Assembly (NCBI GenBank): GCA_013297765.1
Contig: JAAFID010000003.1
Coordinates: forward strand, 1 to 54,593
Length of the DNA: 54,593 nt
Reading direction: 5' to 3'
Source of the DNA: Cytophagales bacterium
GTDB taxonomy: Bacteria; Bacteroidota; Bacteroidia; Cytophagales; Cytophagaceae
In this document: piece after piece, positions 23,009 through 47,396 of the stretch
How the letters are laid out: the number at the start of each line of letters is the position of its first letter
Numbering within the stretch: the stretch's first letter is position 1
Notes under the pieces: generated by a model
Told to the model about the DNA's origin: nothing
Databases searched by the model: none
The model's input: the letters and a program-made list of their open reading frames with translations, nothing else
Translations under genes and position numbers: made by a program

Positions 23009-24538
23009 TTACTCCTCATTTGCCAACTGAATTTTATCTATCAAATAACCATGGCCTAAAATTTCGCTGCACGTTTTTATAGCTGCTATGGCAACACCGT
23101 AAACACCATGGGTATGCAGATTTTGCCCTGTCATTAGTAGATTAGGAATTTTAGTTTTTACAGCAACAAAAGATTTTATAGGGTCGTTGCAATCTTTTAA
23201 TATTCCATAAAGAGAACCATCATGTGTACCTATATAATCTCGGTAGGTGAGCGGTGTTGAGGCATAATAACTGTGCAATTGCTCTCTAATATTTGGAAAT
23301 AATTTTTCCATTCTATCCAATAATTTTTCTGCTTTCTCGACCTTAAATTTTTGGTATGCCTCTCCTCTATCGTCCTCTTCGGAAGTGGTGTTGTAAGTAT
23401 TTTCCCATTCCTTCATTTCATCGTAACGCATGTAGGCTATGGCAATACCGTTTTCGGCATATTCAGTAGCCTTTGAGTGTGCACAACAGTAAAAAGCAAA
23501 AGAGTGTGGCCAATTTTCTTGAGTGTAATTTATAGCTCCCCATGCATCATGCCCACTCATGTGATAGATGTTGTGGTCTTTGTATGGGAAAGTATTTTTT
23601 TTAAATACCAAATTGAGTATAAAACAAGAGGCTGTATTTTCAAGGCTTTTGATGCGATTGCGATAAGATTTGCGAATCATGTTAGATGATATCATATCCA
23701 ATGTTGGCGACGGATGTATGGCCGAGATAAAAAGCTTTCCCTCTATCTCTCTGCCATCTTGCAATATAGCTTTTGTCATCTGCTCATCTTCTACCTCAAG
23801 TTTTACTACTTTTGCCCTATTGATTACTTTACTTTTATTGTTTCTAATATTTTTGGTAATCAGTCTTTCCAGTTGCGAACTACCATCTACAAATCTATGC
23901 GAACTAAGTATATAGGTATTAATAACTAATGCGTGCATGTACAAAGGCGATTTATCAGCCTCGCCAGCATATAGCACATTGGGCGTTGCTAGTACTGCCC
24001 GCAAGCGAAGGTCTTGTGTAAGTGTATTGATAAATTGTGCTGCATTGATAGAAAGCATAGGCATATCGCTTATAAAATCTGATGCCCCATGTTCTAGATT
24101 GTAAAGTGGAAATTGTTTTACAATATGCTGAATAGTGTCGACGTATGTGTTTATTGCAAGTGCTTCATTGGGGAAATCGGCTATTAAATTTTTGACAAAT
24201 CTGTCATAGCCTATGGATTGCACATAAAATTTTTCTTCCCCTTCAAAATAGGTTCTATCAAAGCCTTCTTCATTGAGTGGTTGTAGTTTTAGCTTGTGCA
24301 TAAACCCCAAATAGGTAAAAATTTTATGGAGGGCCTGCCCTTTTTCCAACCCACCTACATAGTGCACACCAGTATCGAAAATACAGCGGTCACGCACAAA
24401 TGTTTGCAAGCTACCACCTAGCTGGCGGTTCTTTTCTAGCACACAAACGCTATATCCTTCATTGCTTAGAAAATTGGCACATAGTAGGCCACCCAAACCA
24501 CTACCAACAATTACTACATCATACATTTCAGATTGCAT
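23009..24538 (-). CDS. CrtI/retinol-saturase-like FAD oxidoreductase of the polyene cluster
   Basis: 509 residues. The N-terminal Rossmann motif VVIVGSGLGGLLCANFLS and VCVLEKNRQLGGSLQTF define an FAD enzyme of the phytoene-desaturase/retinol-saturase group; the C-terminal GQNLHTHGVYGVAIAAIKTC closes the FAD site, as in CrtI-like proteins. The start ATG at 24538 overlaps the upstream fusion gene stop by 11 bp (ATGCAATCTGA), so translation is coupled, and it is the last gene of the minus-strand operon. Such enzymes add, remove or isomerise double bonds in polyenes, so it may adjust the aryl-polyene chain; the exact reaction is unknown. The longer frame starting at 24613 only adds an unlikely extension. 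Confidence 0.85.
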   Translation of the reverse strand: MQSEMYDVVIVGSGLGGLLCANFLSNEGYSVCVLEKNRQLGGSLQTFVRDRCIFDTGVHYVGGLEKGQALHKIFTYLGFMHKLKLQPLNEEGFDRTYFEGEEKFYVQSIGYDRFVKNLIADFPNEALAINTYVDTIQHIVKQFPLYNLEHGASDFISDMPMLSINAAQFINTLTQDLRLRAVLATPNVLYAGEADKSPLYMHALVINTYILSSHRFVDGSSQLERLITKNIRNNKSKVINRAKVVKLEVEDEQMTKAILQDGREIEGKLFISAIHPSPTLDMISSNMIRKSYRNRIKSLENTASCFILNLVFKKNTFPYKDHNIYHMSGHDAWGAINYTQENWPHSFAFYCCAHSKATEYAENGIAIAYMRYDEMKEWENTYNTTSEEDDRGEAYQKFKVEKAEKLLDRMEKLFPNIREQLHSYYASTPLTYRDYIGTHDGSLYGILKDCNDPIKSFVAVKTKIPNLLMTGQNLHTHGVYGVAIAAIKTCSEILGHGYLIDKIQLANEE

Positions 24539-27500
24539 CGGTATTCTTTTTTTTAATGTAATAGATAATATTTGAATTGAATTTTGTCTTGTCGATAACA
24601 GTAATATCGACATCTAAACTGGTTAAAAAGTTAATAATTGCTGTTGCTGAAAAAAAATACAATTGCTTATTGTTTGATTTGTTAAAGCCTATTAATTTGA
24701 CAGAAAAAAACTCGGATATCTTAGTACCCCAGTGTCGTGTAGCCATAGCATTATCAGCATCTCGAATGATCAGTACACCACTATTGGATAACGCTGCTAC
24801 ACATTTTCTAAGCAATAGCTGCTGTTGCTCTACCGACATGTAGTGCAATACATCAGTAACGATGATAGCTTCTGCAAGTTCATATTCGTAAACATTGGCG
24901 TCTGATGCTATAAAATTCAAGTGTTTTAAATCTTGATTGGCATGGCTAGCAACTTTAATTTTTGCCTCATCAAAATCCAATGCAGTAATGGTACGTTGAG
25001 CAGACATATAGGCCATCATGGTAGCAAAGTATCCATATCCACAACCTATATCATATATTCTACCTTGCTTTGGTATCAAGGCATGCAGCACTTCATAATT
25101 TTTTTCAAGACCTATTTTAATCTTGGTGTACCACTCTAGTTGTGGTGTTTTGTAAATGAATTTTTGAACTATTTTATTTTTATAAAAAGCCAAATTTTCG
25201 TTTTGATTAACTAGTATTTGATATTCTTGTCTAAATAATTTAAGTATGCTCTTTGCACGTTCTTGATAGGTATTGCCGTAAGCAGCATCTTGTGGGGCAA
25301 TGCGTGAAAGAATTTTGATGGTAAGTACCCCTTGCTGCAATAAATAATCGTGTTTGGGCATACAGTGCCCTGTACCGTGAATAACTACTGGCAATAGGTC
25401 TAATTGTAGTTTTTCGGCAAGAAGAAATGCACCTTTATGAAAACGATTTATCTGCAAATCTTCACTACGAGTACCTTCGGGATATATAGCAATAGAATAT
25501 CCGAGGTTTACAGAGCGTTGCACCATATCAAAACTATTTTCTACACCTTGGGCAACGCTATAAAAACCAGCCATACGAGCAATAGGACCAAGGAAAGGAG
25601 AATTCCAAACCCAATTATTGGTAAATAGTAAAATACGGGGATGTGCGGCCAAAATCAACAATATATCTAAGAAAGATTGATGATTGGCGATAATAATGGC
25701 AGGCTTTGCAAGCGTTTCTTGATGTAAATTTTGATAGTCTTTTTTAATAAAATAAACACCATAGACTAGTATCCGAGCAAAATACATGATTAAATAATGA
25801 TAAATCAATTTGGCCTTGCCTTCTTTGAATCTTAAAATTTTAAAAAGCAGTAGGCCTACCACAGCAAGAAAAATAATTCCCAAGAAAAAAACCGTAAAAG
25901 CAATAAGGGAAGCTATAAAATAAAAGAGCGTAATGGGCTGCAAGCCTTTATTGACCCTATTAGCAATAAGAAAACGAAAAAGCATGGGAATAAAAAAATA
26001 CGAGATAAACAGCACACAACTGATGCCAATAACCGAAATTAAAGCGATAGATTGTAATGCTGGATGCTGTGCAAATATCAACACCCCAACCCCAAGTAAA
26101 GTAGTAATAGCGGCCAGTATAATGGAAATCTTGTACGAAGGTAAATTCTTTGTGCCATCTTTGTATTCGGCCAGCAGTCCATCCATCATAAAAATGCTAA
26201 AATCATCGCCCAGGCCAAATATAAAGGCAGAAATGATGATGTTTACAATATTGAAACGAATATCAAAAATACCCATTAAACCCACTATCCATAACCAACT
26301 AAGCAACATAGGCAAGAATGTAATCAATGCCAATTCTATTCTACCATAAAAAATAAGCAATATGCCAAAAACCAGTAACGAGGAAGTAAATAAGATTTGA
26401 TTAAAATCTTGTTTCACTACTTCTACAAATTTTTTGATTAAATATTGCTTATCCAAAATATATTGTTGGCTATTGTTAGCAAGGGTTTCGTACACCGTGG
26501 TACTTTGAGCGGGCGGTATCTTAAGCCCCGCCATGACCACCACTCTTCCTTGAGTATCTAATGAGATAAAATCTTTTAAAAAATATTGCTGTTTAGCGTA
26601 CAAGGTATCGGTATTTACCAGTTGTAGATCTTTTTCTATCCATTGCAAAAACACATTAAAAGCATCGCTCTTAAAACCATTAGCAGGTGCACCGATGGCA
26701 ATATTTCTTTTTAAAGAGTCTATTTTTTGAGCCGACCAAAACTTTTCCCACTGTGCTTTGCGGTCTTTCAATACTGTATTGCTGGGTAGCAAACTGTGTA
26801 TGCCAAAATATTTATTTACTTTGCCTTGCTGCTGTAGTTGGTCTATCTGTGGCATAGCAGAGGCTGCATGTAACAAAGCTTCATCTAGGTTTCGCCCCTC
26901 ATAAAGCAAATAAATAGTGCGTTCTATGCCGCCAGATGCCTCGGCACTCAAATGTATCTCTGCACTTTTTAATTTTTCTGTAGTAAAATTTAAAGCATTC
27001 AAATCGTCTTCAAATTTGGCACTAGCGTAGGTAAAATAAAATAATACTGAAAGTGCCAAAATAATCAAGTAAGCATATCTATGAAACAATTTTATAGCAG
27101 AGAATAATTTATTCTTAATATTTATAAAAGTGGGAAAAGGCTGCTGCCACGAGGTATCTACAGGGTAGTATTTAATCAAATGAGGTAAAAATACGAGTGT
27201 AAAAATAATTGCCCCAATCAAACTGATCCCAGAAAATAAGCCAAAGTCGAAGAGTATTTTAGATTGTACAAAACCTAAACTTAAAAATGCCGCTACTGTA
27301 GATATATTGCCTACAAGCAATGGTGTGGCCAAATCATTTATTACAACGGTCATCGATTTTGTATGCTTGTAGTGGGTAAATACATGCAGTGCATAATTGA
27401 TAGCAATACCTATAATGACAACACCACCGCCTAGTGCAACAGACGATATTGTTTGCTTATACCCATAAATAACAGCAAGTGCCAGCCCAATGCCAAATAC

Positions 27501-28415
27501 AATAGGCAACAAAATCACCACTGGCAAAGAAATTTTTCTAAAATACCACCATAGTAGCATAAAAATAGAAACAATAGATATGCTAACGGTGACCCATATA
27601 TCTTGCTGTATTTGGGTGGCGTTGGCTACAGCTACCGCACAAGCACCAAAATATTCTACCGATAAATCTGAAAAATTGGCGTTTGAAGTTTGAGCAATTG
27701 TTTTATCAATACCATCTATTAATATTTTGTTAGGTCCAGTTTCATTGGGTGCAAAGCGTGGCGTAATTAATATCAGCAAGGCACTTTTATCTTTTCTAAC
27801 CACGTATCCATCGTACAATTCATATTGATTGTTAATTTGTAAAGCCTGCAATTTTGCCAGTGCCAAGGTGGTAAAATGCAATGGGTCTTCCACTATTTTT
27901 TGTTTCAGCACCATACCCATAGGCGACATGATGGTGGTATAATTTTTTTGAAATGCTGCTTTAATCTGGGCTGGTTGCAGCATAGAATCTATACGAGCGT
28001 AATCTTTGGCCTCTAAAAAATAGGGCAAATAATCGTAGCAATTTTGATACGCTTGCAACATCAAATTGTCGGGTAGCCTATGTCTAATTTCTTTTATGAA
28101 TGGCTTTAGGGTAGCATCATTTTCCAGAATTTGGGTAAAAATAGCCGCATAGGCAGTCAGCTTTTCTGGATTTTTTTCTGCGGTATCTTTCAAGGATATT
28201 CTTACCACCAGTTTTTCCAATACACCAGCTTTCTTCAACACCTGCTGATACTGAATGCCACCCTTGTCGTTTGGCAATATTTTGGTAATGTCTTCATCGG
28301 TTTTTATTTGGGCAGCAAAATAAAAAATCGGAATACACATCAATATCAGCAACACCCAAATCAGTATTGGATGAATGGATAATTTTTGGTATAGAAATAA
28401 GAAAAATTTACTCAT
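24528..28415 (-). CDS. three-domain exporter-acyltransferase-methyltransferase fusion
   Basis: 1295 residues in three parts. Residues ~1-850: an MMPL/RND-type permease with two six-helix bundles (GGGVVIIGIAINYALH near 345; FGLGDDFSIFMMD near 745) and two periplasmic domains. Residues ~875-1075: a PlsC-like acyltransferase with the HX4D motif NHQSFLDILL near 910 and the YPEGTRS motif near 980. Residues ~1095-1295: a class I SAM methyltransferase with YDIGCGYGYFA near 1125. Separate versions of exporter, acyltransferase and methyltransferase occur in aryl-polyene clusters, and here they are one chain. The ATG overlaps the GT2 stop (ATGAGTAA). It probably moves and modifies the acylated polyene at the inner membrane. 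Confidence 0.88.
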   Translation of the reverse strand: MSKFFLFLYQKLSIHPILIWVLLILMCIPIFYFAAQIKTDEDITKILPNDKGGIQYQQVLKKAGVLEKLVVRISLKDTAEKNPEKLTAYAAIFTQILENDATLKPFIKEIRHRLPDNLMLQAYQNCYDYLPYFLEAKDYARIDSMLQPAQIKAAFQKNYTTIMSPMGMVLKQKIVEDPLHFTTLALAKLQALQINNQYELYDGYVVRKDKSALLILITPRFAPNETGPNKILIDGIDKTIAQTSNANFSDLSVEYFGACAVAVANATQIQQDIWVTVSISIVSIFMLLWWYFRKISLPVVILLPIVFGIGLALAVIYGYKQTISSVALGGGVVIIGIAINYALHVFTHYKHTKSMTVVINDLATPLLVGNISTVAAFLSLGFVQSKILFDFGLFSGISLIGAIIFTLVFLPHLIKYYPVDTSWQQPFPTFINIKNKLFSAIKLFHRYAYLIILALSVLFYFTYASAKFEDDLNALNFTTEKLKSAEIHLSAEASGGIERTIYLLYEGRNLDEALLHAASAMPQIDQLQQQGKVNKYFGIHSLLPSNTVLKDRKAQWEKFWSAQKIDSLKRNIAIGAPANGFKSDAFNVFLQWIEKDLQLVNTDTLYAKQQYFLKDFISLDTQGRVVVMAGLKIPPAQSTTVYETLANNSQQYILDKQYLIKKFVEVVKQDFNQILFTSSLLVFGILLIFYGRIELALITFLPMLLSWLWIVGLMGIFDIRFNIVNIIISAFIFGLGDDFSIFMMDGLLAEYKDGTKNLPSYKISIILAAITTLLGVGVLIFAQHPALQSIALISVIGISCVLFISYFFIPMLFRFLIANRVNKGLQPITLFYFIASLIAFTVFFLGIIFLAVVGLLLFKILRFKEGKAKLIYHYLIMYFARILVYGVYFIKKDYQNLHQETLAKPAIIIANHQSFLDILLILAAHPRILLFTNNWVWNSPFLGPIARMAGFYSVAQGVENSFDMVQRSVNLGYSIAIYPEGTRSEDLQINRFHKGAFLLAEKLQLDLLPVVIHGTGHCMPKHDYLLQQGVLTIKILSRIAPQDAAYGNTYQERAKSILKLFRQEYQILVNQNENLAFYKNKIVQKFIYKTPQLEWYTKIKIGLEKNYEVLHALIPKQGRIYDIGCGYGYFATMMAYMSAQRTITALDFDEAKIKVASHANQDLKHLNFIASDANVYEYELAEAIIVTDVLHYMSVEQQQLLLRKCVAALSNSGVLIIRDADNAMATRHWGTKISEFFSVKLIGFNKSNNKQLYFFSATAIINFLTSLDVDITVIDKTKFNSNIIYYIKKKNTDAI

Positions 28416-29610
28416 TGACAGACTCAATTTTTAATTTTGATTTTCTAAAAATAGAAAGTAATACGAAAGCCATCACTCCTGTAATCAATGCCAATACTGT
28501 TGCCAATACAAGGCTGCCCACAGCGTATTGGGTAAAATTATTCTTTACAAATTCCCAATTAATAGCAAGCTGATTTGTAGAATTTTGATTATTCATAATG
28601 ATACCACCCAAGTGGTAACTGACATAAATAATAAAAGGAAACATAGGCGGCATACTGATGTTAGAAGCAAGTACCGCCAATACTTTATTGAGTTTGAGCA
28701 AATGAGAAAGTGCAATGACCGAAATAATTTGATAACCCCACAGTGGCACTATTCCAATGAAAATGCCTAAAGCAATGGCCAATGATTTTTGAAGATTGGT
28801 TTCGTTACCGTCAACTACATTGTCAATAATGAGCTGTTTTAAATTTTTTTTTTGAAGATTTCTAAAAAATCGAATAGGAATATAATAAACCAATGCAAGT
28901 ATTACCAATACGGTATTGAGCAAGGTAATTCTAGTAAAATCTTTGAATGGCCTAAAGTGAGAAATACGTATGGCAGATGGGGCATAGTAAACAGATACAG
29001 GCACTGTCAATACAGGCACTCCACGCCATGCAGCTCGCACTATAATTTCTATCTCCAACTCATATTTTGGAGTGTAAAACGTCATTTTCTGCAAGGATTT
29101 GAGTGGGTAAAGTCTAAAGCCCGACTGGGTATCGGGTATTTTGATACCAGTCTCTACCCAAAACCAAAAGTTGGAAAATTTATTTCCATAGCTGCTCTTG
29201 CCAGGCACACTGGCCTGTTCCATATTTCTTGCACCAATGATAAGGGCATCTGGATGCTCTATCATTTTGTAAATAAATTTTGGAATATCCTCTGCAAAAT
29301 GTTGCCCATCAGAATCTATCGTAATGGCATATTGATAGCCTTTGCTATAAGCCAGTTCAAACCCTCGTCTTAGTGCAGTTCCCTTACCTTGATTAGGGCT
29401 GTAAGCCAAAATTTCTATACCATCTATGGTCGATAATATTTCGCTTGTGTTATCTGTGGCTCCATCGTTTACTACCATCACATTATCGGTGTATTTCCTC
29501 ACCTCCTCAATTACTTTTTTTAAAGTACCGCCATTGTTATATGTAGGTATGAGCACGCAGCAATGATAGGCCTGAAACAATGATTTTATATCAGAAAAGG
29601 AATGATTCAC
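28408..29610 (-). CDS. GT2 glycosyltransferase with DUF2062 membrane domain
   Basis: 400 residues. Residues 15-230 form a GT-A glycosyltransferase of the dolichyl-phosphate-mannose-synthase type: VLIPTYNNGGTLKK, VVNDGATDNT, the metal-binding DSDGQ at 99-103 and TQSGFRLYPL. A membrane helix (~228-245) and a DUF2062 domain (LAIALGIFIGIVPLWGYQII, NISMPPMFPF) follow. Similar glycosyltransferases are regular members of flexirubin and aryl-polyene clusters. Donor sugar and acceptor are not predictable. It is 5 bp downstream of the dehydratase gene and overlaps the fusion gene by 8 bp. Confidence 0.9.
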   Translation of the reverse strand: MNHSFSDIKSLFQAYHCCVLIPTYNNGGTLKKVIEEVRKYTDNVMVVNDGATDNTSEILSTIDGIEILAYSPNQGKGTALRRGFELAYSKGYQYAITIDSDGQHFAEDIPKFIYKMIEHPDALIIGARNMEQASVPGKSSYGNKFSNFWFWVETGIKIPDTQSGFRLYPLKSLQKMTFYTPKYELEIEIIVRAAWRGVPVLTVPVSVYYAPSAIRISHFRPFKDFTRITLLNTVLVILALVYYIPIRFFRNLQKKNLKQLIIDNVVDGNETNLQKSLAIALGIFIGIVPLWGYQIISVIALSHLLKLNKVLAVLASNISMPPMFPFIIYVSYHLGGIIMNNQNSTNQLAINWEFVKNNFTQYAVGSLVLATVLALITGVMAFVLLSIFRKSKLKIESVNE

Positions 29611-29615
29611 AGATG

Positions 29616-29984
29616 TTATTTTTTAATATATGTTCCAGAGAATTTCATGCAGGTAATTGCTCCTTTTGTTAGCACATTATTGACCAACAAAGTCTCATCG
29701 GGCAAGGGTTTTAAGGTAATATCAAAAAACAAATTTTCACCATCGGGTTGCACTAGCGAAAGGTATTTGATATTTGTTGCTTTTTGCAATTGCCATTGAT
29801 TGTGGCTAGTTTTTTCTATCAATTCTTTGATCATTTGCATCATACAAACCCCCGGAAGTACTGGGGTTTGCGGAAAGTGTCCTTTAAAAATATCGCTATT
29901 GGCATTCAATGCCAGCTCTGCTTTAATAGTACCCAATGTGGTATCATATTCAAATTGTATAGTTTGGTATAATGGGATATTCAT
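29616..29984 (-). CDS. FabZ/ApeI-like 3-hydroxyacyl-ACP dehydratase
   Basis: 122-residue single hotdog domain. The FabZ active-site motif is clear: FKGHFPQTPVLPGVCMMQM with the catalytic-type His36, followed by the central helix MIKELIEKT. It should dehydrate 3-hydroxyacyl-ACP intermediates during polyene extension. The 47396 gene supplies a second, different dehydratase, matching the ApeI/ApeP pair of aryl-polyene systems. Located between the lipoprotein and glycosyltransferase genes in the minus-strand operon. Confidence 0.85.
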   Translation of the reverse strand: MNIPLYQTIQFEYDTTLGTIKAELALNANSDIFKGHFPQTPVLPGVCMMQMIKELIEKTSHNQWQLQKATNIKYLSLVQPDGENLFFDITLKPLPDETLLVNNVLTKGAITCMKFSGTYIKK

Positions 29985-30002: not shown

Positions 30003-30650
30003 TTACAATGAAGTAAGATGAATTTTAAGTTTGAAATTGAGATGGGTGATGTACACATCTTTCGGTAATACAGCATTAGAGGCATAGGTAAGGTCGAATA
30101 ATGTTTTGGTTTTAAAGCCCTCGCTTAACACCTGAATTTGATTTAAAATCAAATTATTCCTTTTGTAAAAATACCGATAAATCTCTTGCTTGGTTCTCCT
30201 TTCTACTATTTCTCCATCTACCTTATCTTCTTTTCGGCAAAGTGGTAAAGTAGTAAATTTATTGAGCAATGCAAAGGTGCGAATATCTTTTGCAATAGCT
30301 GCTACTACTGTATTATTGCTCATTTGAGGTATGGTGTATATGACCGAATCTTTTTGTGGTGACACTATAAGCTCAAAAAGCTTGGCTCCCATAACAGTTG
30401 TAAATGCTGACCTACAAGTGGTATCATTTATCTGCTTTAATACCAATATTCCTGAAAAAAATTTTCCGTAAAGGGTAACCTCGGTCTTGTATTGATGGGT
30501 CGTGTGTGTGCTGTCAAATAATTTCCAGTAATATTCACTTTTACATTCTACCTGAGTCATTTGTGCTACTTGCATTCGGCCACAACTAGCAAGGCATAGT
30601 ACCAATAATAAGCTATTTAACCACAAATTCTGTGTCGTTGATTGCTGCAT
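30003..30650 (-). CDS. cluster lipoprotein (DUF3261-like)
   Basis: 215 residues with a lipoprotein signal (LNSLLLVLCLASC, Cys23). The remainder is beta-rich without recognised catalytic motif, for example YKTEVTLYGKFFSGILVLKQ and SGFKTKTLFDLTY-like strands; the fold resembles the LolB/DUF3261 group. Aryl-polyene clusters usually contain a LolA-like protein next to such a lipoprotein, which suggests a LolA/LolB-style transfer chain for the pigment lipid. The start overlaps the lolA-like gene end by 38 bp; the ATG at 30650 keeps the lipobox in frame. The DUF3261 name is by context and low certainty. Confidence 0.7.
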   Translation of the reverse strand: MQQSTTQNLWLNSLLLVLCLASCGRMQVAQMTQVECKSEYYWKLFDSTHTTHQYKTEVTLYGKFFSGILVLKQINDTTCRSAFTTVMGAKLFELIVSPQKDSVIYTIPQMSNNTVVAAIAKDIRTFALLNKFTTLPLCRKEDKVDGEIVERRTKQEIYRYFYKRNNLILNQIQVLSEGFKTKTLFDLTYASNAVLPKDVYITHLNFKLKIHLTSL

Positions 30651-31251
30651 TTTGAATACTATTTTTAAAAATCATTTTAGTGTAATCTCCCGATGCTTCC
30701 ATCATTAGAATGGTGTGTACATGCAAAGTTTTTTTATCAATGTATATTTTAATTTTTTGCATCATCTCTTGAATAGCTTTTTCTGTAGGTTTCATTTCTA
30801 GCAAATAAGAAGATTCATTTTCAAAATAGGTCACGTTGTACTTTCTGCTGTGCAGCACATCGCCCTTTAGGGTTGCCACCATCATATCATTTATTTCACG
30901 AAATGTTTTATTGGCATTAGTATCAAATTTATTGATTTTGCTACCGTCTTTGATATACATTTTTCCATTATTCAATACCATCAAATATTGAAAGGGTGCA
31001 GTATATTCCAGCCTTACTTTATTTTCTTTTTTGTATTTGAATTTGCCATTCGATTTAATATCGGCTTCCATCATACTCAAATGTTTTTCTTGTACAAAAT
31101 CGCTATGGATAGAAGTTAATTTTTTGCTGGCTACATCAAATTTATTTGAAAACACATCCACATCTTTTAATGGTTTAAAACCTGCTTCTTGGGCAGCAAC
31201 GTGAATAATAATGCCTAAGAATAGCACTACACTGAGCAAAATAAATTTCAT
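30613..31251 (-). CDS. LolA-like periplasmic carrier of the polyene cluster
   Basis: 212 residues, signal peptide MKFILLSVVLFLGIIIHVAA, then the LolA pattern: KKLTSIHSDFVQEKHLSMM, KSNGKFKYKKENKVRLEYTA (the FxW-like F-x-Y/P strand), QYLMVLNNGKMYIKDGSKI and IYIDKKTLHVHTILMMEASG. LolA-type proteins carry lipids or lipoproteins across the periplasm; the cluster copy presumably carries the aryl-polyene lipid from the RND exporters to the outer membrane. The internal ATG at 31251 is used because the upstream ATG at 31293 would precede the signal peptide and sit in the promoter region. Confidence 0.85.
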   Translation of the reverse strand: MKFILLSVVLFLGIIIHVAAQEAGFKPLKDVDVFSNKFDVASKKLTSIHSDFVQEKHLSMMEADIKSNGKFKYKKENKVRLEYTAPFQYLMVLNNGKMYIKDGSKINKFDTNANKTFREINDMMVATLKGDVLHSRKYNVTYFENESSYLLEMKPTEKAIQEMMQKIKIYIDKKTLHVHTILMMEASGDYTKMIFKNSIQNAAINDTEFVVK

Positions 31252-31274
31252 GATATGGTGTTCAATTGAAAAGA

Positions 31275-31282
31275 CAAATATA
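31275..31282 (-). promoter_or_regulatory. -7 element upstream of the lolA-like gene
   Basis: TATATTTG on the minus strand, exact TAnnTTTG, 23 bp before the ATG at 31251. This suggests that the lolA-to-oxidoreductase genes have their own start of transcription. Confidence 0.45.
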
Positions 31283-31384
31283 GCTATTTGCAATGGGTTA
31301 AAAAGCGAATATTAAAAATGTGCTCGCAGTAGTTACAAGCATTCGGTTTACAAAAAAATACAACAACTTTAAAAAAGTAACTTT

Positions 31385-31693: not shown

Positions 31694-33952
31694 CTATTTT
31701 GTTTTATTGCTCTTTTTATAAAATAACATGAGCAAAACTGGAAGTAAAAGCAAATCAGCAACAATGGCTATTAATAGCGTAAGCCCTATCAAAAAGCCAG
31801 TATAGAAAGTACTTTCAAAACTTGAAAGTAGTAAAGTTGCAAAGCCAGAAATCAATATCAGAGAAGTTACTATCATCGCTTTGCCAGTAGAGAGGTAGGT
31901 TCGTTTGATGGCGTATAGGTGTGATTGATGTAGCCGCAATTCCATTTTAAATCTTGATAAAAAATGAATAGAATCATCAACGGCAATACCAAAAGCAATG
32001 CTGAAAATGATAGACGTCGAGGCCTTGAGATGTATGCCACAAGCACCCATAATGCCGCCAATAACCAGCAAGGGAATTAGGTTTGGAATAAGTGCAAGTA
32101 CAATCATCTTGGTTTGGCGAAAGAGCAACCCAATGATGAGGGCGATGCTGACAATGCCCAATATCAAATCTTCAATAAGTGACTGTGCAAGGTAAGAGTT
32201 GTTTTTGTCTATCAATAGTGAACTGCCTGTTAGCTGGTAGTTCCAAAACTGCTTGCTCCCATTGGTTGTGAGGTATATTGCGAGGTCTTTATTTTTATTG
32301 GCAATAGCAAGGCTGCCGTCGTCTTTTATTTTTCCCGAAACTCTCATTTTAGAAAAATCTTTACTACAAAATGCAGCAAACTCTTTGCGTTTAGTGATGA
32401 GTTTTAGTTTTGGAAGCAATGTTTCAAATTCTTCCTTTGAGGGGAATTTATAATACTCATCTAGCCCACCATTGCTGGCTTGCATTAAATATTTAATAAA
32501 AGTATTGGGCGAAATAATATCTCTAACTTTGTATTTATTCGTCAAATAAATTTCTACTTCGTTTAGTTTACTTAGTGCAGCGTAATTCATAACACTGGTG
32601 GAATCTTTGGCGTAAATGGCCATTTCAAAAGGGCGAACACCACCAAAATTATCTTCTAAAAACTGTACACTTTTTTTTAGTGGGTCTTTGTCTGAAATAT
32701 CATCTAGCAATTTTGCATCTATGCTTATTTTAAACGTAAAAAAAATCGCCACCATCACCAGACTAATGGTAGTGCTGAGAATTAAATAGGGATTGCCACA
32801 AATCCATATCAGTAATTTTTGAAGCATTCGGTACCAAAAAACGTTTTCATTTTTTAGTTTGGCAATAGGTGGAGCCGGCAGTAAAACCAAGGCTGCAGGT
32901 AAAAAAGTGAATGCTAAAGCAAAAGCAACGAAAACTCCTATGCCTGTATAAAACCCGAAATCTCGGATGGGAGCAATGGTAGAATTGAGTAACGTCACAA
33001 AGCCTATGGCAGTAGTAACAGCAGTGATAAAAGTAGCCAAACCGACATCATTGAGTGCAAGTGTAAGCGCAGGAATTTTAGCGGTGCCATGCCGCAATTC
33101 TTCCAAATATTTGGAAAGTAAATGCGTCATGTCGGACATGGCAACGACAAATAAAATAGGTGGCAGCAAAGAGGTGAGCAAATCTAAATCTTTGCCTAGA
33201 ATAGACATAATGGCCAGTGTCCAAGCTATTGAAAGTACAACGGTGATTAGCGGCACCACAACACCCCAAACAGTGCGGTATGCAATGAATAAAAACAATC
33301 CAATGAGTATAGTAGAAGCTATGATAAAGATCAAAACCTCTTCTTGCATTTTCTCTACATAAATCTTTGAAGCCTTTATTTTACCTGCGGTATAGACGTT
33401 ATCAAAATGTTGAGCGGCAACTTTTGCATCTACAAAATCTATCAAATCATCGCCTGCTTTTTTTTTGATGTTCTGAGTATTGAAAATAATGATTGCTACC
33501 GCATTTTTGGTTTTAGAAATAAGCCCCGCACTTAAATGAGGATATTTGGCTATTCGTATAGAATCTTGTATTAATTTGTTGCTATCGTGCGTGTGCAAAA
33601 GTGGAATTTCAAAAAAGCCACCTGCGCCTATTACTGGAGTCTTCAAGTAAGTAGGGACAATTATTTTCCTTACCGCTGCATGGCTTCTGATTTGTGTACT
33701 TAGGGTATTTATTTTGTTTAAAAATACGGTATCATAAATCCCTTTTTTATTTTCAATAGCGACAATTAAAAAATCGGTATCGTTTTCAAAGTCTTTTCTA
33801 AACTGAAGTAAGTATTCAAGTTCCCCATCTTTTTGAGGAAAATAACTTTCAAAATCGTAGTTGAATTTTAGTTTGGCAATGTAAAAAGTGCTCGCTATAG
33901 AAATACAAACAATGGCAAGAATTAGTAGTATGCTTTTGCTTTTGAGGGTCAT
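31694..33952 (-). CDS. RND/MMPL-family exporter (HAE-3-like)
   Basis: 752 residues with the duplicated RND plan: a first helix (SILLILAIVCISIASTFYI), a periplasmic domain with FNYDFESYFPQ, helices 2-6 with LLPPILFVVAMSDMTHLLSK, the second helix-plus-loop unit, then FSIAFGIAVDDSIHFLSRF near the end. The acidic residues in helix 4 (MSDMTH) and helix 10 (AVDDSIH) are the usual proton-relay positions. Together with the separate fused exporter this gives two exporters, likely moving aryl-polyene lipids out of the inner membrane. Substrate is inferred from location. Confidence 0.88.
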   Translation of the reverse strand: MTLKSKSILLILAIVCISIASTFYIAKLKFNYDFESYFPQKDGELEYLLQFRKDFENDTDFLIVAIENKKGIYDTVFLNKINTLSTQIRSHAAVRKIIVPTYLKTPVIGAGGFFEIPLLHTHDSNKLIQDSIRIAKYPHLSAGLISKTKNAVAIIIFNTQNIKKKAGDDLIDFVDAKVAAQHFDNVYTAGKIKASKIYVEKMQEEVLIFIIASTILIGLFLFIAYRTVWGVVVPLITVVLSIAWTLAIMSILGKDLDLLTSLLPPILFVVAMSDMTHLLSKYLEELRHGTAKIPALTLALNDVGLATFITAVTTAIGFVTLLNSTIAPIRDFGFYTGIGVFVAFALAFTFLPAALVLLPAPPIAKLKNENVFWYRMLQKLLIWICGNPYLILSTTISLVMVAIFFTFKISIDAKLLDDISDKDPLKKSVQFLEDNFGGVRPFEMAIYAKDSTSVMNYAALSKLNEVEIYLTNKYKVRDIISPNTFIKYLMQASNGGLDEYYKFPSKEEFETLLPKLKLITKRKEFAAFCSKDFSKMRVSGKIKDDGSLAIANKNKDLAIYLTTNGSKQFWNYQLTGSSLLIDKNNSYLAQSLIEDLILGIVSIALIIGLLFRQTKMIVLALIPNLIPLLVIGGIMGACGIHLKASTSIIFSIAFGIAVDDSIHFLSRFKMELRLHQSHLYAIKRTYLSTGKAMIVTSLILISGFATLLLSSFESTFYTGFLIGLTLLIAIVADLLLLPVLLMLFYKKSNKTK

Positions 33953-34448: not shown

Positions 34449-35243
34449 ATGCAGCAATACCACGATTTACTTCAGCACATACTACAACACGGCGTACAGA
34501 AGGGAGACCGCACGGGTACTGGCACGTTGAGTGTATTTGGGTATCAAATGCGGTTTGATTTGGCCAAAGGGTTTCCATTGCTCACTACTAAAAAGTTGCA
34601 TACCAAAAGTATCATTCACGAGTTGCTGTGGTTCTTAAAAGGCGATACCAATATTCAGTATCTGAAAGACAATGATGTAAAAATATGGGACGAATGGGCT
34701 GATGAAAATGGCAACCTTGGCCCTGTGTACGGTTATCAGTGGCGTAGCTGGCCTACTCCAGACGGTGGTTCTATAGATCAAATTTCTAATGTTATTAATC
34801 AAATAAAACAGAATCCCAATTCTAGAAGATTGATGGTGAGTGCATGGAATGTGGCCGATGTAGATAAAATGAAGTTGCCTCCATGCCACTCTATGTTTCA
34901 ATTTTATGTGGCAGACGGTAAACTATCTTGTCAATTATACCAGCGTAGTGCAGATGTTTTTTTGGGAGTGCCATTTAATATCGCTTCCTACGCCTTACTT
35001 ACCATGATGGTGGCACAAGTTTGCAACCTTGGTTTGGGCGATTTTGTCCATACCTTTGGCGATACGCATTTGTACCTAAATCATTTGGAGCAAGCACAAT
35101 TGCAATTGACCAGAGAATTTCGTTCACTACCAACCATGAAACTGAATCCAGCCATAGGTTCTATTTTTGATTTTAAGTTTGAAGATTTTACGCTAGAAAA
35201 TTACGACCCACATCCTCATATTAAAGCGGTGGTGGCGGTGTAG
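34449..35243 (+). CDS. thyA: thymidylate synthase
   Basis: 264 residues, the same length as the E. coli enzyme. It methylates dUMP to dTMP using methylene-tetrahydrofolate. Landmarks: [38 protein letters not shown], the catalytic Cys146 in [34 protein letters not shown] and [13 protein letters not shown] housekeeping gene that interrupts the polyene locus on the opposite strand; no dihydrofolate reductase gene follows. Confidence 0.97.
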
Positions 35244-35257
35244 TTATTTAACTTATA

Positions 35258-35274
35258 GAAAGTTTCAAACTTTC
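35258..35274. terminator. possible weak bidirectional terminator
   Basis: GAAAGTTT-C-AAACTTTC, a perfect 8-bp inverted repeat between convergent thyA and the SRPBCC gene. It has no T run and almost no loop, so function is doubtful. Confidence 0.3.
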
Positions 35275-35294
35275 CAAAAGTTGAGAAAACTAAT

Positions 35295-36134
35295 TTATGA
35301 AATTACACTTTCAGTATATTTTTTAAAATTATTCAAAATCATTTGCCAGCCTTGTTGTTGCATTTCCGCAGGATTCTCATTTTCAGGGTCAAATGTGGTG
35401 GAGACAAGCGTTTGGTGTTCGATGGTTTCAAATGAAGTCGTTGCTATTCTCCCATCGGCCATTGTGTATGTTAATTCTTGCGGCATTTCAACTTTGGTAT
35501 AGATAGCTTCAAAATCAAAACCAAAACTTCCATCTTTAGCTTCCATCCTAGCGCTATATTTCCCACCTACCCTCAAATCATTCTCGGCTCTAGGGCACAG
35601 CCAATCGTCAGAAGCAAAGTTCCAATTGGTAATGTGTTCTGGTTGCGTATAGCAAGCCCAAACTTTGGCTATGGGTGCATTAACTGTTGTACTTACTTTA
35701 ATTTTTGTGGACATGGATTCTAAATGATTTTTTAAAAGTTGAAGGGAATGTAATGTTCCATCTTTGTAACCATCGGCCACCGCTTGGGTAGTCACTATTT
35801 GAATCTGCAATAATTTTGTTTTATTGCCATCTAATTTTTCTAGTAAATAGCTTTCTTCAATTAGTCCAGTACTTTGGCTGGGGTATATGCACGTAAGTTC
35901 TTTATGCAATCTTATGGTTTTGATGCTTCCTTGCCATATCATTTCCATGCCTTCCCATTGCATTACTTTTCCAGTTTCATCGTAGCATGTGTAGATAATC
36001 TCACTGCCTTGTTTCCAATCTGTAGCCACAGTTACACGCTTCATCCACTTATGGAACTCGTTAGCATTAGTGAGGGCTAGCCATACTTTTTCTATCGAAG
36101 CGTTTATTTCTATTTCTAAATTGTTCGTTATCAT
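35295..36134 (-). CDS. tandem AHSA1/SRPBCC-domain protein
   Basis: 279 residues comprising two START-like SRPBCC domains. The first (1-138) has the INASIEKVWLALTNANEFHKW opening; the second (139-279) begins with its own Met as MSTKIKVSTTVNAPIAKVWA and has LRVGGKYSARMEAKDG and GWQMILNNFKKY, like a full stand-alone AHSA1 protein. Such domains bind hydrophobic ligands in a cavity. The start overlaps the VOC gene stop by 4 bp (ATGA). Both genes continue the transcript of the aryl-acid ligase. A link with pigment handling is possible but unproven. Confidence 0.85.
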   Translation of the reverse strand: MITNNLEIEINASIEKVWLALTNANEFHKWMKRVTVATDWKQGSEIIYTCYDETGKVMQWEGMEMIWQGSIKTIRLHKELTCIYPSQSTGLIEESYLLEKLDGNKTKLLQIQIVTTQAVADGYKDGTLHSLQLLKNHLESMSTKIKVSTTVNAPIAKVWACYTQPEHITNWNFASDDWLCPRAENDLRVGGKYSARMEAKDGSFGFDFEAIYTKVEMPQELTYTMADGRIATTSFETIEHQTLVSTTFDPENENPAEMQQQGWQMILNNFKKYTESVIS

Positions 36135-36580: not shown

Positions 36581-37876
36581 TTATCTCAAATCTATAAAAT
36601 CAACTGGTTTACGTTGTATTGGGTTGGTTTTTACTTTTTCAATGTCGGCTGCACTCACAAATTTGATACTAGGTGCGACTCTCAATTTTGCTCTAAAGGT
36701 GTCTTTGATTTGCTTTTCCAACTGGGTGGTCACCTCGTGGGCATATACAAAGGCAACCAGTTCATCGGTATCTAAATTATTGGTAGATACCTCTACATAG
36801 TAGTTATAAACCTCTGGTATGCCATTCAATACATCGTTGAGTGCTTGCGGATATAGGGTAGTGCCTTTGTATTTTATCATTTGACTTTTTCTACCAACTA
36901 TAGGGCCTATGCGCCAAGAAAGATTTTGGCTATCATCTATTAATTTATGAATAATGCACAAGTCGCCAGTTTTAAATCTTATCAAAGGCATGCCTTCTGT
37001 ACCTAGGGTAGTAACGGTAAGCTCGCCTACTTCACCATCTGCTACTGGGTTGTTTTCTGCATCTAAACTTTCTATAATGGCAAGTTCTGGAATCAAATGC
37101 CCACCTCTACCTGCTTCACATTCGGTAAATGCAGTTCCTATTTCTGTTGAGGCATAGGTGGAGTGCAGGCTTACTGCTGCCCACTCAGCCTTGATGCGGT
37201 TACCTACTTCATTTAAAGAAAAATCTTGATGGCGTATTGGTTCGCCCACACAAATAATTTTTTGGATACTTGAATTTTTAAAATCAATTTTTTTCTGTTT
37301 GGCAAAGTCTATCAATCGCAATACGAAAGAGGGTACAGCTATCAATACATTTGGTTTGATACGTGCAATGGTATCCCACTGCAATTCAGGATTGCCAGGC
37401 CCTACACGAACTGCTGCTGCACCTATTTGTCGAAGCCCTGAAAAATAAGCTAGGCCAGCCATAAACCTTCTGTCTAGCGTTACAGTTAGCTGCACAATGT
37501 CATTGGCAGTAATGCCTGCGGTAGCCAAAGAACGGTATTCATTATAGGCAAGTCGATCTAGGTCTTTGTCGGTAAGCACAAATGTTACGGGGTCGCCCAG
37601 CGTACCAGAGGTAGTCACATAGTCTATTATTTTACTGCGGCCTACACATACAAAATCTTGATTGTGCAGTTGCAAATCTTCTTTGTCGGTGGTAGGTATT
37701 TTTACCAAATCTGCAATGGTTTTTATACCCTTAATGTCTATATTATGCGTGGCAAATACCTTTTGGTAAAATGGGGAATGGGCGGCTACATAGGCCAATG
37801 TTGCTTGTAGTTCTCGCTCTTGAAAGTGTGATATATTGCTAGCAGCGCCTACTGTATGGTGTAAAAATTGATTCAT
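36581..37876 (-). CDS. PaaK-like aryl-acid:CoA/ACP ligase
   Basis: 431-residue adenylate-forming enzyme resembling phenylacetate-CoA ligase: AAHSPFYQKVF, the phosphate-binding VTTSGTLGDPVTF, STYASTEIGTAFTEC for the aromatic pocket and A5, RFKTGDLCII for A7 and GRKSQMIKYKGTTLYPQAL for A8. The catalytic Lys of A10 is probably in KTNPIQRKPVDF near the C terminus. In the polyene pathway it would activate 4-coumarate, made by the ammonia-lyase, and load it onto an ACP, like ApeH. It shares an operon with AcpS (3-bp gap) and the C45 protein. Confidence 0.85.
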   Translation of the reverse strand: MNQFLHHTVGAASNISHFQERELQATLAYVAAHSPFYQKVFATHNIDIKGIKTIADLVKIPTTDKEDLQLHNQDFVCVGRSKIIDYVTTSGTLGDPVTFVLTDKDLDRLAYNEYRSLATAGITANDIVQLTVTLDRRFMAGLAYFSGLRQIGAAAVRVGPGNPELQWDTIARIKPNVLIAVPSFVLRLIDFAKQKKIDFKNSSIQKIICVGEPIRHQDFSLNEVGNRIKAEWAAVSLHSTYASTEIGTAFTECEAGRGGHLIPELAIIESLDAENNPVADGEVGELTVTTLGTEGMPLIRFKTGDLCIIHKLIDDSQNLSWRIGPIVGRKSQMIKYKGTTLYPQALNDVLNGIPEVYNYYVEVSTNNLDTDELVAFVYAHEVTTQLEKQIKDTFRAKLRVAPSIKFVSAADIEKVKTNPIQRKPVDFIDLR

Positions 37877-38270: not shown

Positions 38271-39929
38271 TTATTTTTGATTTATAGTTGCTAGTTTGTT
38301 TTTTAAATTTTGCCTATCGGTTTCTGAGGGCATGTCATATTGTAGGGCTTGTAAATAGTAGCTTTTAGCCCTTATGTAATCTTTATTTGTATTGAAATAA
38401 TCGCCTAATAATTGATAGGTATAAAAGTAGTTTGGATTAAGATTTTTAAATTTTTCCACCTTTTCAGCATTCATTTGAAAATATTTTGATGTCCCATTGA
38501 TATAAGCTAATATTTTTGTTGATTCTACTTTAAAAGTCTCAAATTTTTTGTACTGATCAGAATATAAAAAGCTATCAGGTGCAATGTTTTTAGTACTTGC
38601 AGCTAGCTTGGCAGTCGGGTTGGCAAAAATACTATCCAAATTGTAATAGTTGTATTTCCCCAATTGATATGGTGCAGTAGATACCCATACCTCTTTTTTG
38701 TAGGGATTAAAAATAATAGAATGATGAGCTATCAACTGATTTATAGCTTTGGGATTGCCCATACCTAGAGGCTTTTCATCGATTCCGTTTTGGTTTCTTA
38801 GTAGGTTGGCTATTGTATTTTGATCATGTTTGGGAACAGCATGAAGCAATTGCACTACCCGCTGCTGACGATAGGCCGAGGTGCTATCTTGAATATTTTC
38901 CATATTAGATTTTATCCCTTTCAAACTATCGCTTTGAAAGTGATTGGCACATACTATGCGGTTTTGGGTAGGGTAATATAAAAAAGTTTTGTTGGGCGTT
39001 TTTTCAATAATCGCCATTTTTTTGTCTATTGCCGAAGCTATCATAAAAGATTCGGAAACAAAACTTTGGTATTTTTTTGCAATCATATAGGCCTCTTCAA
39101 TATTTGAGGCATACTGCAATATATCTCTAGCTATAATAGATACTGGTGTACCGCTGTGGTCGGGTATTTCTGATTTATCGGCATTGAGTGTTACTGTAAG
39201 GCCTTTGTCGTTCATGCCAGAAAGTACGCCTATCATACCGCCCCAGGTTACGCTCATAAATGAGTTTCCGTGTGTAGGGTTTACAAATGCTACTATTTTT
39301 TCTTTTGCAAAATCATCGCCAACATAGAAATCAAAATTTCGCCCTACATACATACCACTATCTGTAGCATATTCGCCCCATGCCCCTACAGCAGTGCAAG
39401 CGACGAGGTGCATGTTTTGCAATGCATGGCCTATGTCGTGGGCTGCATGGTAGTTAAGCAGGCGTTGATAAGGTGATGCTATATAGTCAAATTTGGGGGA
39501 GGCAAATTGCGAGATACCATATATTTCCTTTTGATATTCGATAGGTATGTAATCGTTTAGGTTTCTATTGAACCAGCCCACAAATAGCTTCAGTACCCAT
39601 TGGTACACTTTGGAAGGTACTTTAGTGTTCAATTCATTTACAAAATATACTTCTTGTTGCTGACTTAGGGCTTGGGTCAGTATTCCATTGGCATAGCCTA
39701 GTTGGTAGCCGTCGCCTTCCACATACAGTTGCCATATACCTTGCTGCTGTTGGCTTAGCCAGCTATTGCCAAAGTAGGTAACATTGTCAATCTTAGATAA
39801 TGCTAATTTCGGCATGGTTTCTAACTTGCTTACTTTGGGCGAGGAAATTTGAATACTCCACAATAGTATCATCATAAGCAACGCAACGGATGCTATAAAG
39901 AAGGCTGAAATGATGATAAATTTTTTCAA
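38271..39929 (-). CDS. C45-family Ntn acyltransferase/hydrolase with TPR-like tail
   Basis: 552 residues. One N-terminal membrane helix (residues ~4-24) anchors the protein. The central Ntn-hydrolase domain of the acyl-CoA:6-aminopenicillanate acyltransferase (peptidase C45) type has the expected self-cleavage site before Cys178 in NMHLVACTAVGAWGEY, then GMYVGRNFDF and GMIGVLSGMNDKGLTVTLN. The C terminus (~480-550) contains a TPR-like pair (YFYTYQLLGDYFNTNKDYIR, AKSYYLQALQYD). Related genes recur in flexirubin clusters. It may transfer or hydrolyse the polyene acyl group, for instance onto its lipid partner. It heads an operon with acpS and the ligase; a -7 box TACTTTTG is at 40007-40014. Confidence 0.85.
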   Translation of the reverse strand: MKKFIIISAFFIASVALLMMILLWSIQISSPKVSKLETMPKLALSKIDNVTYFGNSWLSQQQQGIWQLYVEGDGYQLGYANGILTQALSQQQEVYFVNELNTKVPSKVYQWVLKLFVGWFNRNLNDYIPIEYQKEIYGISQFASPKFDYIASPYQRLLNYHAAHDIGHALQNMHLVACTAVGAWGEYATDSGMYVGRNFDFYVGDDFAKEKIVAFVNPTHGNSFMSVTWGGMIGVLSGMNDKGLTVTLNADKSEIPDHSGTPVSIIARDILQYASNIEEAYMIAKKYQSFVSESFMIASAIDKKMAIIEKTPNKTFLYYPTQNRIVCANHFQSDSLKGIKSNMENIQDSTSAYRQQRVVQLLHAVPKHDQNTIANLLRNQNGIDEKPLGMGNPKAINQLIAHHSIIFNPYKKEVWVSTAPYQLGKYNYYNLDSIFANPTAKLAASTKNIAPDSFLYSDQYKKFETFKVESTKILAYINGTSKYFQMNAEKVEKFKNLNPNYFYTYQLLGDYFNTNKDYIRAKSYYLQALQYDMPSETDRQNLKNKLATINQK

Positions 39930-41534: not shown

Positions 41535-43064
41535 ATGAAATTAGTTGGCAACACCACACTTACATTAAAAAAATTTGAATCTATTGTTTTTCATCATGAG
41601 CAAATAGAAATAGACCCCGCAGCATTAGAGCGTGTAAATAATAGTTATTATTTTTTACAAAAATTTGCAAATGATAAGGTCATCTACGGCATCAATACGG
41701 GTTTTGGCCCCATGGCTCAATACAAAATAGAGGATAGTGATTTAAAAAATTTACAATACAATTTGATTAGAAGCCATTGCTCAGGTAGTGGCGAGGCATT
41801 GCCCCATCATTTTGTAAGAGGTATATTACTAGCACGGTTAAATACCTTGCTGCTAGCCAAGTCTGGCGTACACCATAGTTGGGTATTGCTATTTAGAGAC
41901 CTCATTAATCATGACATTTGCCCAGTTATATTTCAACATGGCGGCGTAGGGGCTAGTGGCGATTTGGTACAGTTGGCACACGTAGCGTTGTGCCTTATTG
42001 GCGAGGGCGACGTAACCTACAAAGGAGAAACAAAACCTGCCCAAGAAGTATTTGCCCAAGTAGGTTTAAAACCAGTGCAGATACACCTAAGGGAAGGATT
42101 GGCGGTAATGAATGGCACCTCTGCCATGTCGGGCATTGGATTGATAAATATTATTCAAGCCTATCAACTTAACGAATGGATGCAGGCAGCATCGTGCATG
42201 ATTAACGAGGTGGTAGAATCTTATGAAGATCATTTTTCAGCACCTTTGAATGAAGCAAAGCTGCACAAAGGCCAAAGGCATATCGCCGCTAATATGCGCA
42301 CTATATTGAGCGATAGTTTATTGATAAAGAAGCGGGCCGACCACCTCTATCAAAAAACCGAGGTAAAAGTTTTTAAAGAAAAAGTTCAAGAGTATTATTC
42401 CATACGCTGTGTGCCTCAAATATTAGGGCCTATTCACGACACTATTTTATATGCCGAAGGTATTCTCATTGATGAAATTAATTCAGTAAACGACAACCCC
42501 ATTATAGACCTAGAAACAGAAGATGTATATCATGGGGGCAATTTTCATGGCGATTATGTAGCCCTAGAAATGGACAAGTTGAGAATAGCCATGACCAAAA
42601 GCACCATGCTGTGCGAAAGGCAAATTAATTTTTTAATGAATCATAAAATCAATGAAAAATTACCTCCGTTCGTAAATCTAGGTACACTAGGGCTAAACTT
42701 TGGTTTGCAAGGTGTACAGTTTACAGCAACCTCTACCACGGCCGAGTGCCAGACGTTGGCAACGCCTATGTACATTCATAGCATACCCAATAACAATGAC
42801 AATCAAGATGTAGTGAGTATGGGTACCAACTCGGCCTTACTTACCAATAAAGTAATAGAAAATAGTTTTGAAGTATTGGCCATAGAATTTTGGACTATAG
42901 TGCAGGCCATAGATTATCTCAATTTTGCATCATCTCTATCGTCAACTACCAAGCAGTATTATGAAGCAGTAAGAAAGATAGCCCCGAAATTTAAAGACGA
43001 CCAAATCAAATATCCCACATTGAAATTGCTTAAAATCTTTTTCAAAAATTACATCCGCACTTAA
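41535..43064 (+). CDS. tyrosine ammonia-lyase of the flexirubin pathway
   Basis: 509-residue MIO enzyme of the histidine/tyrosine/phenylalanine ammonia-lyase family. The MIO prosthetic group forms from Ala140-Ser141-Gly142 in HGGVGASGDLVQLAH. Catalytic surroundings: VIYGINTGFGPMAQY, NLIRSHCSGSG (substrate-selectivity loop), EINSVNDNPIID, HGGNFHGDYVALEMDK and TSTTAECQTLATP. It matches, in sequence and layout as I recall it, the F. johnsoniae enzyme shown to be a tyrosine ammonia-lyase, including the RSH-SG loop. It makes 4-coumarate, the aryl starter of flexirubin-type polyenes. Cytoplasmic. Confidence 0.92.
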   Translation: MKLVGNTTLTLKKFESIVFHHEQIEIDPAALERVNNSYYFLQKFANDKVIYGINTGFGPMAQYKIEDSDLKNLQYNLIRSHCSGSGEALPHHFVRGILLARLNTLLLAKSGVHHSWVLLFRDLINHDICPVIFQHGGVGASGDLVQLAHVALCLIGEGDVTYKGETKPAQEVFAQVGLKPVQIHLREGLAVMNGTSAMSGIGLINIIQAYQLNEWMQAASCMINEVVESYEDHFSAPLNEAKLHKGQRHIAANMRTILSDSLLIKKRADHLYQKTEVKVFKEKVQEYYSIRCVPQILGPIHDTILYAEGILIDEINSVNDNPIIDLETEDVYHGGNFHGDYVALEMDKLRIAMTKSTMLCERQINFLMNHKINEKLPPFVNLGTLGLNFGLQGVQFTATSTTAECQTLATPMYIHSIPNNNDNQDVVSMGTNSALLTNKVIENSFEVLAIEFWTIVQAIDYLNFASSLSSTTKQYYEAVRKIAPKFKDDQIKYPTLKLLKIFFKNYIRT

Positions 43065-46322: not shown

Positions 46323-47396
46323 ATGAGATTTTTTAATACCGACAAACTCACCGCTATAGAAGCTAAGCAAGAAGCTCAAAAAATTGCCTTTGCCCCATTT
46401 GTTTTTCAGGCTTCTAAAGCACTTCGTGATTTAGGAATTTTAGAACTAATCGAACTTGCTGGCGATGCGGGAATAACGCTAGACCAAATTTTAGAAAAAC
46501 TAACCCTTACCCGCTATGGAATACGGGTATTGCTAGAGGCTGGCTTGGGTATTGGTTTATTAATAATCAAAGAAGAAAAATATAAACTTACCAAACTGGG
46601 TTATTTTATATTACATGACCCAATGACCAAGGTAAACATGGACTTTGTGCACGATGTGAATTATGAGGGATTTTTCCATTTTCAAGAGTGCATTACTACA
46701 GGAAAACCAGCAGGACTAAAATCTATAGCAACCAATAAAGACACTGTTTACGAGGCCTTGGCAACATTGCCTAGTAAAGTAAAAGAAAGTTGGTTCAATT
46801 TTGACCACTTTTATTCCGATGCTGCATTTCAATATGTGCTGCCACTTGTGTTCAAAGACAAGGTAAAAAAAGTAATGGATGTAGGTGCAAATACTGGAAA
46901 GTGGGCCTTGAAATGTACCGAATACAATCCAGATATAGCAGTTACCATGTGCGACTTGCCAGGGCAGTTGAACGTAGCACTGAAAAATATGGAATCAAAT
47001 GGATTGTCTAATAGAGTTTCTGGCTATGCCATCAATTTGCTAGACCCTAGCACCACACTACCCACAGGCCACGATGTGATATGGATGAGTCAATTCCTAG
47101 ATTGCTTTTCAGAAGAAGAAATAGTGATGATATTGAAAAAAGCTGCCGATGTAATGCAAGAGGGCGATAGACTTTTTATATTAGAAACTTATTGGGACAG
47201 GCAAAAATATGAGAATGCAGCCTTTTGTTTGCAACAGACTTCGCTATATTTTACCTGCATAGCCAACGGCAATAGCCAAATGTACCATGCCGATGTAATG
47301 CATGCCTGTATAGCCAAAGCTGGGTTAAAAATAGTTGAAGAAATAGACCACCTTGGCATTAGTCACACCCTAACACAGTGCATAAAAAATAATTGA
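46323..47396 (+). CDS. SAM-dependent O-methyltransferase-like protein
   Basis: 357 residues. Residues ~1-100 form a winged-helix dimerisation domain (ITLDQILEKLTLTRYGIRVL), followed by a Rossmann methyltransferase with KVMDVGANTGKWALKC (SAM motif I) and TMCDLPGQLNVAL. In the family the catalytic His lies in an LHDW segment after motif IV; here the matching stretch is FLDCFSEEE, so the His is replaced by Asp. Flexirubin rings carry methyl groups, which would suit ring C- or O-methylation; the reaction is not established. The stop overlaps the next start (TGATG). Confidence 0.82.
   Translation: MRFFNTDKLTAIEAKQEAQKIAFAPFVFQASKALRDLGILELIELAGDAGITLDQILEKLTLTRYGIRVLLEAGLGIGLLIIKEEKYKLTKLGYFILHDPMTKVNMDFVHDVNYEGFFHFQECITTGKPAGLKSIATNKDTVYEALATLPSKVKESWFNFDHFYSDAAFQYVLPLVFKDKVKKVMDVGANTGKWALKCTEYNPDIAVTMCDLPGQLNVALKNMESNGLSNRVSGYAINLLDPSTTLPTGHDVIWMSQFLDCFSEEEIVMILKKAADVMQEGDRLFILETYWDRQKYENAAFCLQQTSLYFTCIANGNSQMYHADVMHACIAKAGLKIVEEIDHLGISHTLTQCIKNN

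Follow-up and report, generated by a model that had tools for sequence, protein, structure and literature searches.

A probable flexirubin-cluster exporter fused to acyltransferase and methyltransferase domains in a Cytophagales bacterium, and the loss of these enzymes among its relatives

In the 54,593-nucleotide stretch of DNA analysed here (the window; contig JAAFID010000003.1 of a Cytophagales bacterium), a single gene specifies an MMPL transporter, a PlsC-type acyltransferase and a SAM-dependent methyltransferase. The fusion is real; the evidence does not support a general mechanism in which both enzymatic reactions are coupled to export. With slightly better than even confidence, the product is read as the cluster's own inner-membrane RND lipid exporter (the role of ApeM), with an acyltransferase in the role of ApeD and a methyltransferase tethered to its cytoplasmic C-terminus. 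Judged from homologous sequences, the exporter is the constant part of the protein and each enzyme separately dispensable. Of what is new here, this loss of the enzymes one at a time is the most useful. The route of aryl-polyene and flexirubin pigments to the outer membrane, and their lipid anchor, are an unsolved problem, and a one-chain exporter, acyltransferase and methyltransferase with natural single-enzyme-loss variants lends itself to comparisons that could assign each step.

The fused gene and its domains

The gene begins with an ATG and runs for 1295 codons with no internal stops, exactly the uninterrupted frame of the original prediction; the chance of such a frame in random sequence at the window's GC content (36.6%) is about 1e-40. 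A TTG lying 12 bases upstream would give a frame at 24528-28427 (-) of 1299 amino acids. The ATG is the likelier start since that methionine is nearly invariant in homologues. The start overlaps the stop of the upstream glycosyltransferase (GT2-DUF2062) gene by 8 bases, and the stop is overlapped by a few bases of the downstream FAD oxidoreductase gene, which is consistent with an operon-like arrangement.

Pfam searches returned MMPL (3e-11, in two stretches), Acyltransferase (5e-17, residues 903-1016) and Methyltransf_31/25/11 (about 1e-10, residues 1120-1226), in that order, bearing out the three domains first proposed; the motifs NHQSFLD, YPEGTRS and DIGCGYG were all found as originally given. 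The transporter part passes the MMPL profile cut-off and possesses two repeats and a conserved aspartate in TM10. This residue, D742, is kept in 81/81 homologues having a residue at that position. The nearest solved relative by sequence is the hopanoid RND transporter HpnN (5KHN, 6WU0); the HpnN equivalog profile (TIGR03480), which covers the transporter part only, scores 110.8 bits vs a cut-off of 751.85.

The acyltransferase domain contains the HX4D and PEGTR motifs, the two-helix motif and a PlsC fold, its best solved match being PlsC of T. maritima (5KYM). The methyltransferase domain has a GxGxG motif I, an acidic residue after beta2 and a Rossmann fold, as expected for class I SAM enzymes. 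An AlphaFold model of the half of the protein comprising both enzymes (pLDDT 85) matched 5KYM first and SAM methyltransferases thereafter.

Ahead of the acyltransferase is a pair of hydrophobic helices that could be either re-entrant or membrane-spanning; it aligns with the helices at the N-terminus of 5KYM. According to a title cited in PMC9541089, the two-helix motif of PlsC puts the active site in the membrane. The original prediction also placed both enzymes on the cytoplasmic face. RND proteins have their C-terminal end in the cytoplasm and a SAM methyltransferase needs cytoplasmic SAM; for these two reasons we infer that both domains most likely lie on that side, and to that extent the placement fits.

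Table 1. Features of the fused gene and of the surrounding cluster (positions in the window)
Feature	Position	Strand	Basis
FAD oxidoreductase, probably FlxV	23009..24538	-	Pfam, gene order in relatives
Whole fused gene (MMPL, acyltransferase, methyltransferase)	24528..28415	-	ORF reading, Met kept in homologues
Class I SAM methyltransferase domain	24531..25172	-	Pfam, fold match of model
SAM-binding motif I DIGCGYG, residues 1126-1132	25032..25052	-	alignment
PlsC/LPLAT acyltransferase domain with N-terminal two-helix membrane motif	25173..25937	-	Pfam, solved-structure match, model
PEGTR motif, residues 983-987	25467..25481	-	alignment
HX4D catalytic motif, H916-D921	25665..25682	-	alignment
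RND/MMPL transporter part with about 12 TM helices and two large loops in the periplasm	25938..28415	-	Pfam, NCBIfam, topology
D742 in TM10, RND proton-relay-type Asp	26202..26204	-	alignment
GT2 + DUF2062 glycosyltransferase, counterpart of N-terminal part of ApeJ	28408..29610	-	Pfam, E. coli comparison
Dehydratase, ApeI/FabA-like	29616..29984	-	Pfam, E. coli comparison
LolB2	30003..30650	-	NCBIfam flexirubin LolB2, above cut-off
LolA2	30613..31293	-	NCBIfam flexirubin LolA2, above cut-off
FlxY acyl-CoA ligase	36581..37876	-	NCBIfam, above cut-off
C45/AAT-family acyltransferase, probably FlxW (suggested to be the ligase to dialkylresorcinol)	38271..39929	-	profile match
FlxA tyrosine ammonia-lyase	41535..43064	+	NCBIfam, above cut-off
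FlxJ-family methyltransferase (46% identity with ApeB of E. coli)	46323..47396	+	NCBIfam, E. coli comparison

The flexirubin cluster and related systems

The fusion lies within a flexirubin (flx) cluster, as identified by FlxA, FlxY, LolA2 and LolB2, all of which exceed their NCBIfam cut-offs (Table 1). The FlxJ-family methyltransferase scores 523 vs a cut-off of 560. Homologues of DarA and DarB are found on another contig of the same genome (G000:C229:8413-10457); the DarB query was identified by NCBIfam and the DarA query from where it lies, next to DarB. Where relatives have an intact cluster, its order is usually deacetylase, LolA2, LolB2, dehydratase, GT2-DUF2062, fusion, FlxV. In most of them the last three genes are contiguous and the second MMPL gene of the window is absent, so that the fused MMPL domain is the sole RND exporter in their clusters. 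This second gene (31694-33952, - strand; 752 amino acids, HAE3-like) adjoins LolA2. It is unlikely to be the pigment exporter, being missing from the relatives' clusters and giving no match to ApeM.

Inside the cluster, between the flx export genes and FlxY (34449-36565), are a thymidylate synthase, an AHSA1-domain gene and a 3-dmu-9_3-mt-domain gene, and just before FlxA are two adjacent 209-residue proteins (40168-40797 and 40885-41514) with no Pfam or NCBIfam match.

The aryl-polyene (APE) cluster of E. coli CFT073 was used for comparison. It likewise contains a homologous exporter (ApeM, RND) and acyltransferase (ApeD, LPLAT), but as separate genes. For the acyltransferase domain of the fusion the match is to ApeD (E 2e-15); the similarity of the MMPL part to ApeM is weak (2e-9; 20-34% identity over short stretches). 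By homology, the first two domains are the counterparts of ApeM and ApeD, joined. ApeJ is matched in two pieces, its N-terminal half by the glycosyltransferase next to the fusion and its C-terminal half by a separate LpxL-type protein; from the ApeD, ApeM and ApeJ matches it follows that the lineages fuse different pairs of the same steps. No E. coli counterpart was found for the fused methyltransferase, which gave no match to ApeB at E 0.01 and falls outside the ApeB/FlxJ family; it is the separate FlxJ gene that matches ApeB (1.8e-119). The acceptor lipid of E. coli APE is not known (PMC8253772).

In Chitinophaga pinensis, flxP-flxU share with the window a deacetylase, LolA, a glycosyltransferase, a phospholipid/glycerol acyltransferase and a predicted exporter; the 2014 paper suggests that they take part, through mechanisms not yet known, in exporting the pigment (PMC3992019). 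A three-domain fusion is not described in its main text. From gene order, the window fusion is probably the counterpart of FlxU.

Spread of the fusion and decay of its enzymes

Full-length homologues in a single frame of about 1270–1310 amino acids occur across Bacteroidota at 35–45% identity. Within the window's own family and order, a search of relatives gave full-length matches from several genera, at 35-44% identity. Of 393 Bacteroidota genomes drawn, 35 others contained strong homologues, and in 32 of these the homologue spanned both the MMPL and the acyltransferase part. Among 392 genomes drawn from the window's order, some 49 others had a homologue, nearly always full length. The full architecture is present in Mucilaginibacter, Ferruginibacter, Proteiniphilum and an Alistipes bin, and is carried on plasmids in Aureispira (122 kb) and Persicobacter (157 kb). 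A sequencing or assembly artefact can be rejected because the same full-length frame recurs in so many genera, and the survey of architectures across Bacteroidota that had been suggested earlier finds the three domains fused in many genera rather than always separate. In Aureispira anguillae it is the fusion that is plasmid-borne, in Persicobacter psychrovividus a near-complete flx cluster (L100, L101).

The architecture is already known by name. The Aureispira protein is called a 'trifunctional MMPL family transporter/lysophospholipid acyltransferase/class I SAM-dependent methyltransferase' in RefSeq, a product name known from database annotation only, and the window protein carries the same parts in the same order on one chain; the Persicobacter copy is named as 1-acyl-sn-glycerol-3-phosphate acyltransferase only. 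WP_264793640.1 (A. anguillae) shares the three domains and their order with the window protein (38% identity over 99%), and its gene likewise has genes for an FAD oxidoreductase, a C45 enzyme and an AMP-ligase as neighbours. No paper using the trifunctional name turned up in the literature searched, and no biochemistry or experimental function was found for this fused family. The window gene is another member, its function experimentally uncharacterised.

The fate of the active sites was surveyed in 82 aligned proteins; a C-terminal alignment left out two rows from annotated plasmid records. Both sites are intact in 51, the window copy included. The acyltransferase is kept and the SAM motif lost in 25/82, which are the sampled members of two families (f25 and f26, which, from gene order and what is known of flexirubin producers, we take to be Flavobacteriales) together with one f30 genome. 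The converse, a methyltransferase retained beside an acyltransferase lacking HX4D and PEGTR, is seen in three proteins, all from genus g9 of the window's family. One protein has a deleted acyltransferase and a decayed methyltransferase, and two consist of the transporter only.

In a tree of the MMPL part, rooted on an MMPL-only row and unsure at its root and deep placements because of long branches, the acyltransferase-dead set formed one well-supported clade, and methyltransferase loss took about three changes, of which the main one falls on a branch with full support. A domain that has lost its site evolves faster than the transporter. Between g9 species, identity is 22-35% in the acyltransferase and about 70% in the transporter. 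In pairs whose methyltransferase is dead, dN/dS, with dS partly saturated, is about 0.08-0.16 for the methyltransferase vs 0.03-0.07 for the transporter. A Rossmann-like fold is still predicted with confidence for the decayed methyltransferase (pLDDT of the blocks mostly >90), which has methyltransferases among its fold matches. Adjoining the fusion in acyltransferase-dead genomes, inspection by eye revealed no compensating acyltransferase, only a channel-like ORF.

Since the exporter is retained where either enzyme is dead, tethering of the enzymes is not essential for export. A tentative reading, with chances well under even, is that a conserved exporter core has had its enzymes inactivated separately by lineage, often with the chain intact, the pseudoenzyme domains serving in structure, gating or carrier docking; the folded pseudo-methyltransferase of the presumed Flavobacteriales and the pseudo-acyltransferase of one genus of the window's family would be examples.

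Possible roles of the fused enzymes

The preferred reading, an exporter with an ApeD-like acyltransferase at its C-terminus, was adopted because of the flx genes around it, the lack of another MMPL gene in most relatives' intact clusters, the ApeD and ApeM matches, the nearest structures (HpnN and PlsC), the AlphaFold model of the enzyme half, the conservation of D742 and the intact active sites. The acyltransferase would work at the inner leaflet, transferring an acyl group, plausibly the aryl-polyene off its carrier protein, to an acceptor that is a lipid or a glycolipid. Proton-driven extraction of the product by the RND part would follow, for passage to LolA2 and LolB2 and thence to the outer membrane. 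The methyltransferase would be an optional tailoring step.

The substrate of this methyltransferase is probably something other than the pigment ring. Flexirubin of C. pinensis incorporates one methionine-derived methyl, on the aryl ring (PMC3992019). FlxJ and an intact fused methyltransferase occur together in 13 sampled genomes, and from this co-occurrence and the lone methyl on the ring it is argued that the fused enzyme probably acts elsewhere. As the ApeB homologue of the same cluster, FlxJ would be the better candidate for the ring methyl; the fused domain was rejected for this role, lacking the similarity to ApeB that FlxJ has. In five genomes with an intact fused methyltransferase FlxJ is absent, and there a ring role retains some probability.

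That the two enzymes modify a carrier lipid independently of the pigment, the fusion mainly giving co-localisation and equal dosage, we consider unlikely. The PlsC fold with its two-helix membrane motif, the phosphoethanolamine N-methyltransferases among the methyltransferase's sequence matches and the loss of the enzymes independently of the exporter favour it, but the methyltransferase similarity is generic class I, which does not fix a substrate, and the genes around the fusion tie it to pigment. Less probable still is the original prediction that acylation and methylation take place on the pigment itself during hand-over to the exporter. Its premises, a fusion conserved across Bacteroidota and set in a pigment cluster, with every active site intact in the window copy, hold. 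The coupling is not supported: the exporter is kept with a dead methyltransferase (25 acyltransferase-positive proteins), with a dead acyltransferase (three) and with both missing or dead (three), so that modification at hand-over is not obligatory for the family, and FlxJ/ApeB accounts for the single ring methyl. It is very improbable that the acyltransferase joins the aryl-polyene acid to dialkylresorcinol to form flexirubin itself, for although it sits in a flexirubin cluster in a genome with DarA- and DarB-like genes, its status and the DAR genes dissociate both ways (dead in G013 and G016, which have DarA, DarB and the C45 enzyme; intact in G056, G041, G006, G582 and G471, which gave no DarA or DarB match), and FlxW was the ligase proposed in PMC3992019.

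Among the relatives, in genome G018 (L072) an intact fusion is flanked by GT2-DUF2062 and FlxV genes each split into two or three ORFs, by frameshifts or sequencing errors. Two loci (L082, L091) have a KS2-type ketosynthase ORF of 579-596 amino acids and are missing the separate partner gene, the homologue of window 49393-50025, which suggests a further fusion within the flx cluster. Lastly, f25 genomes (L086 11857-13912; L092; L099) carry DarA- and DarB-like genes directly downstream of the fusion, which brings the two halves of flexirubin synthesis together in a single locus.
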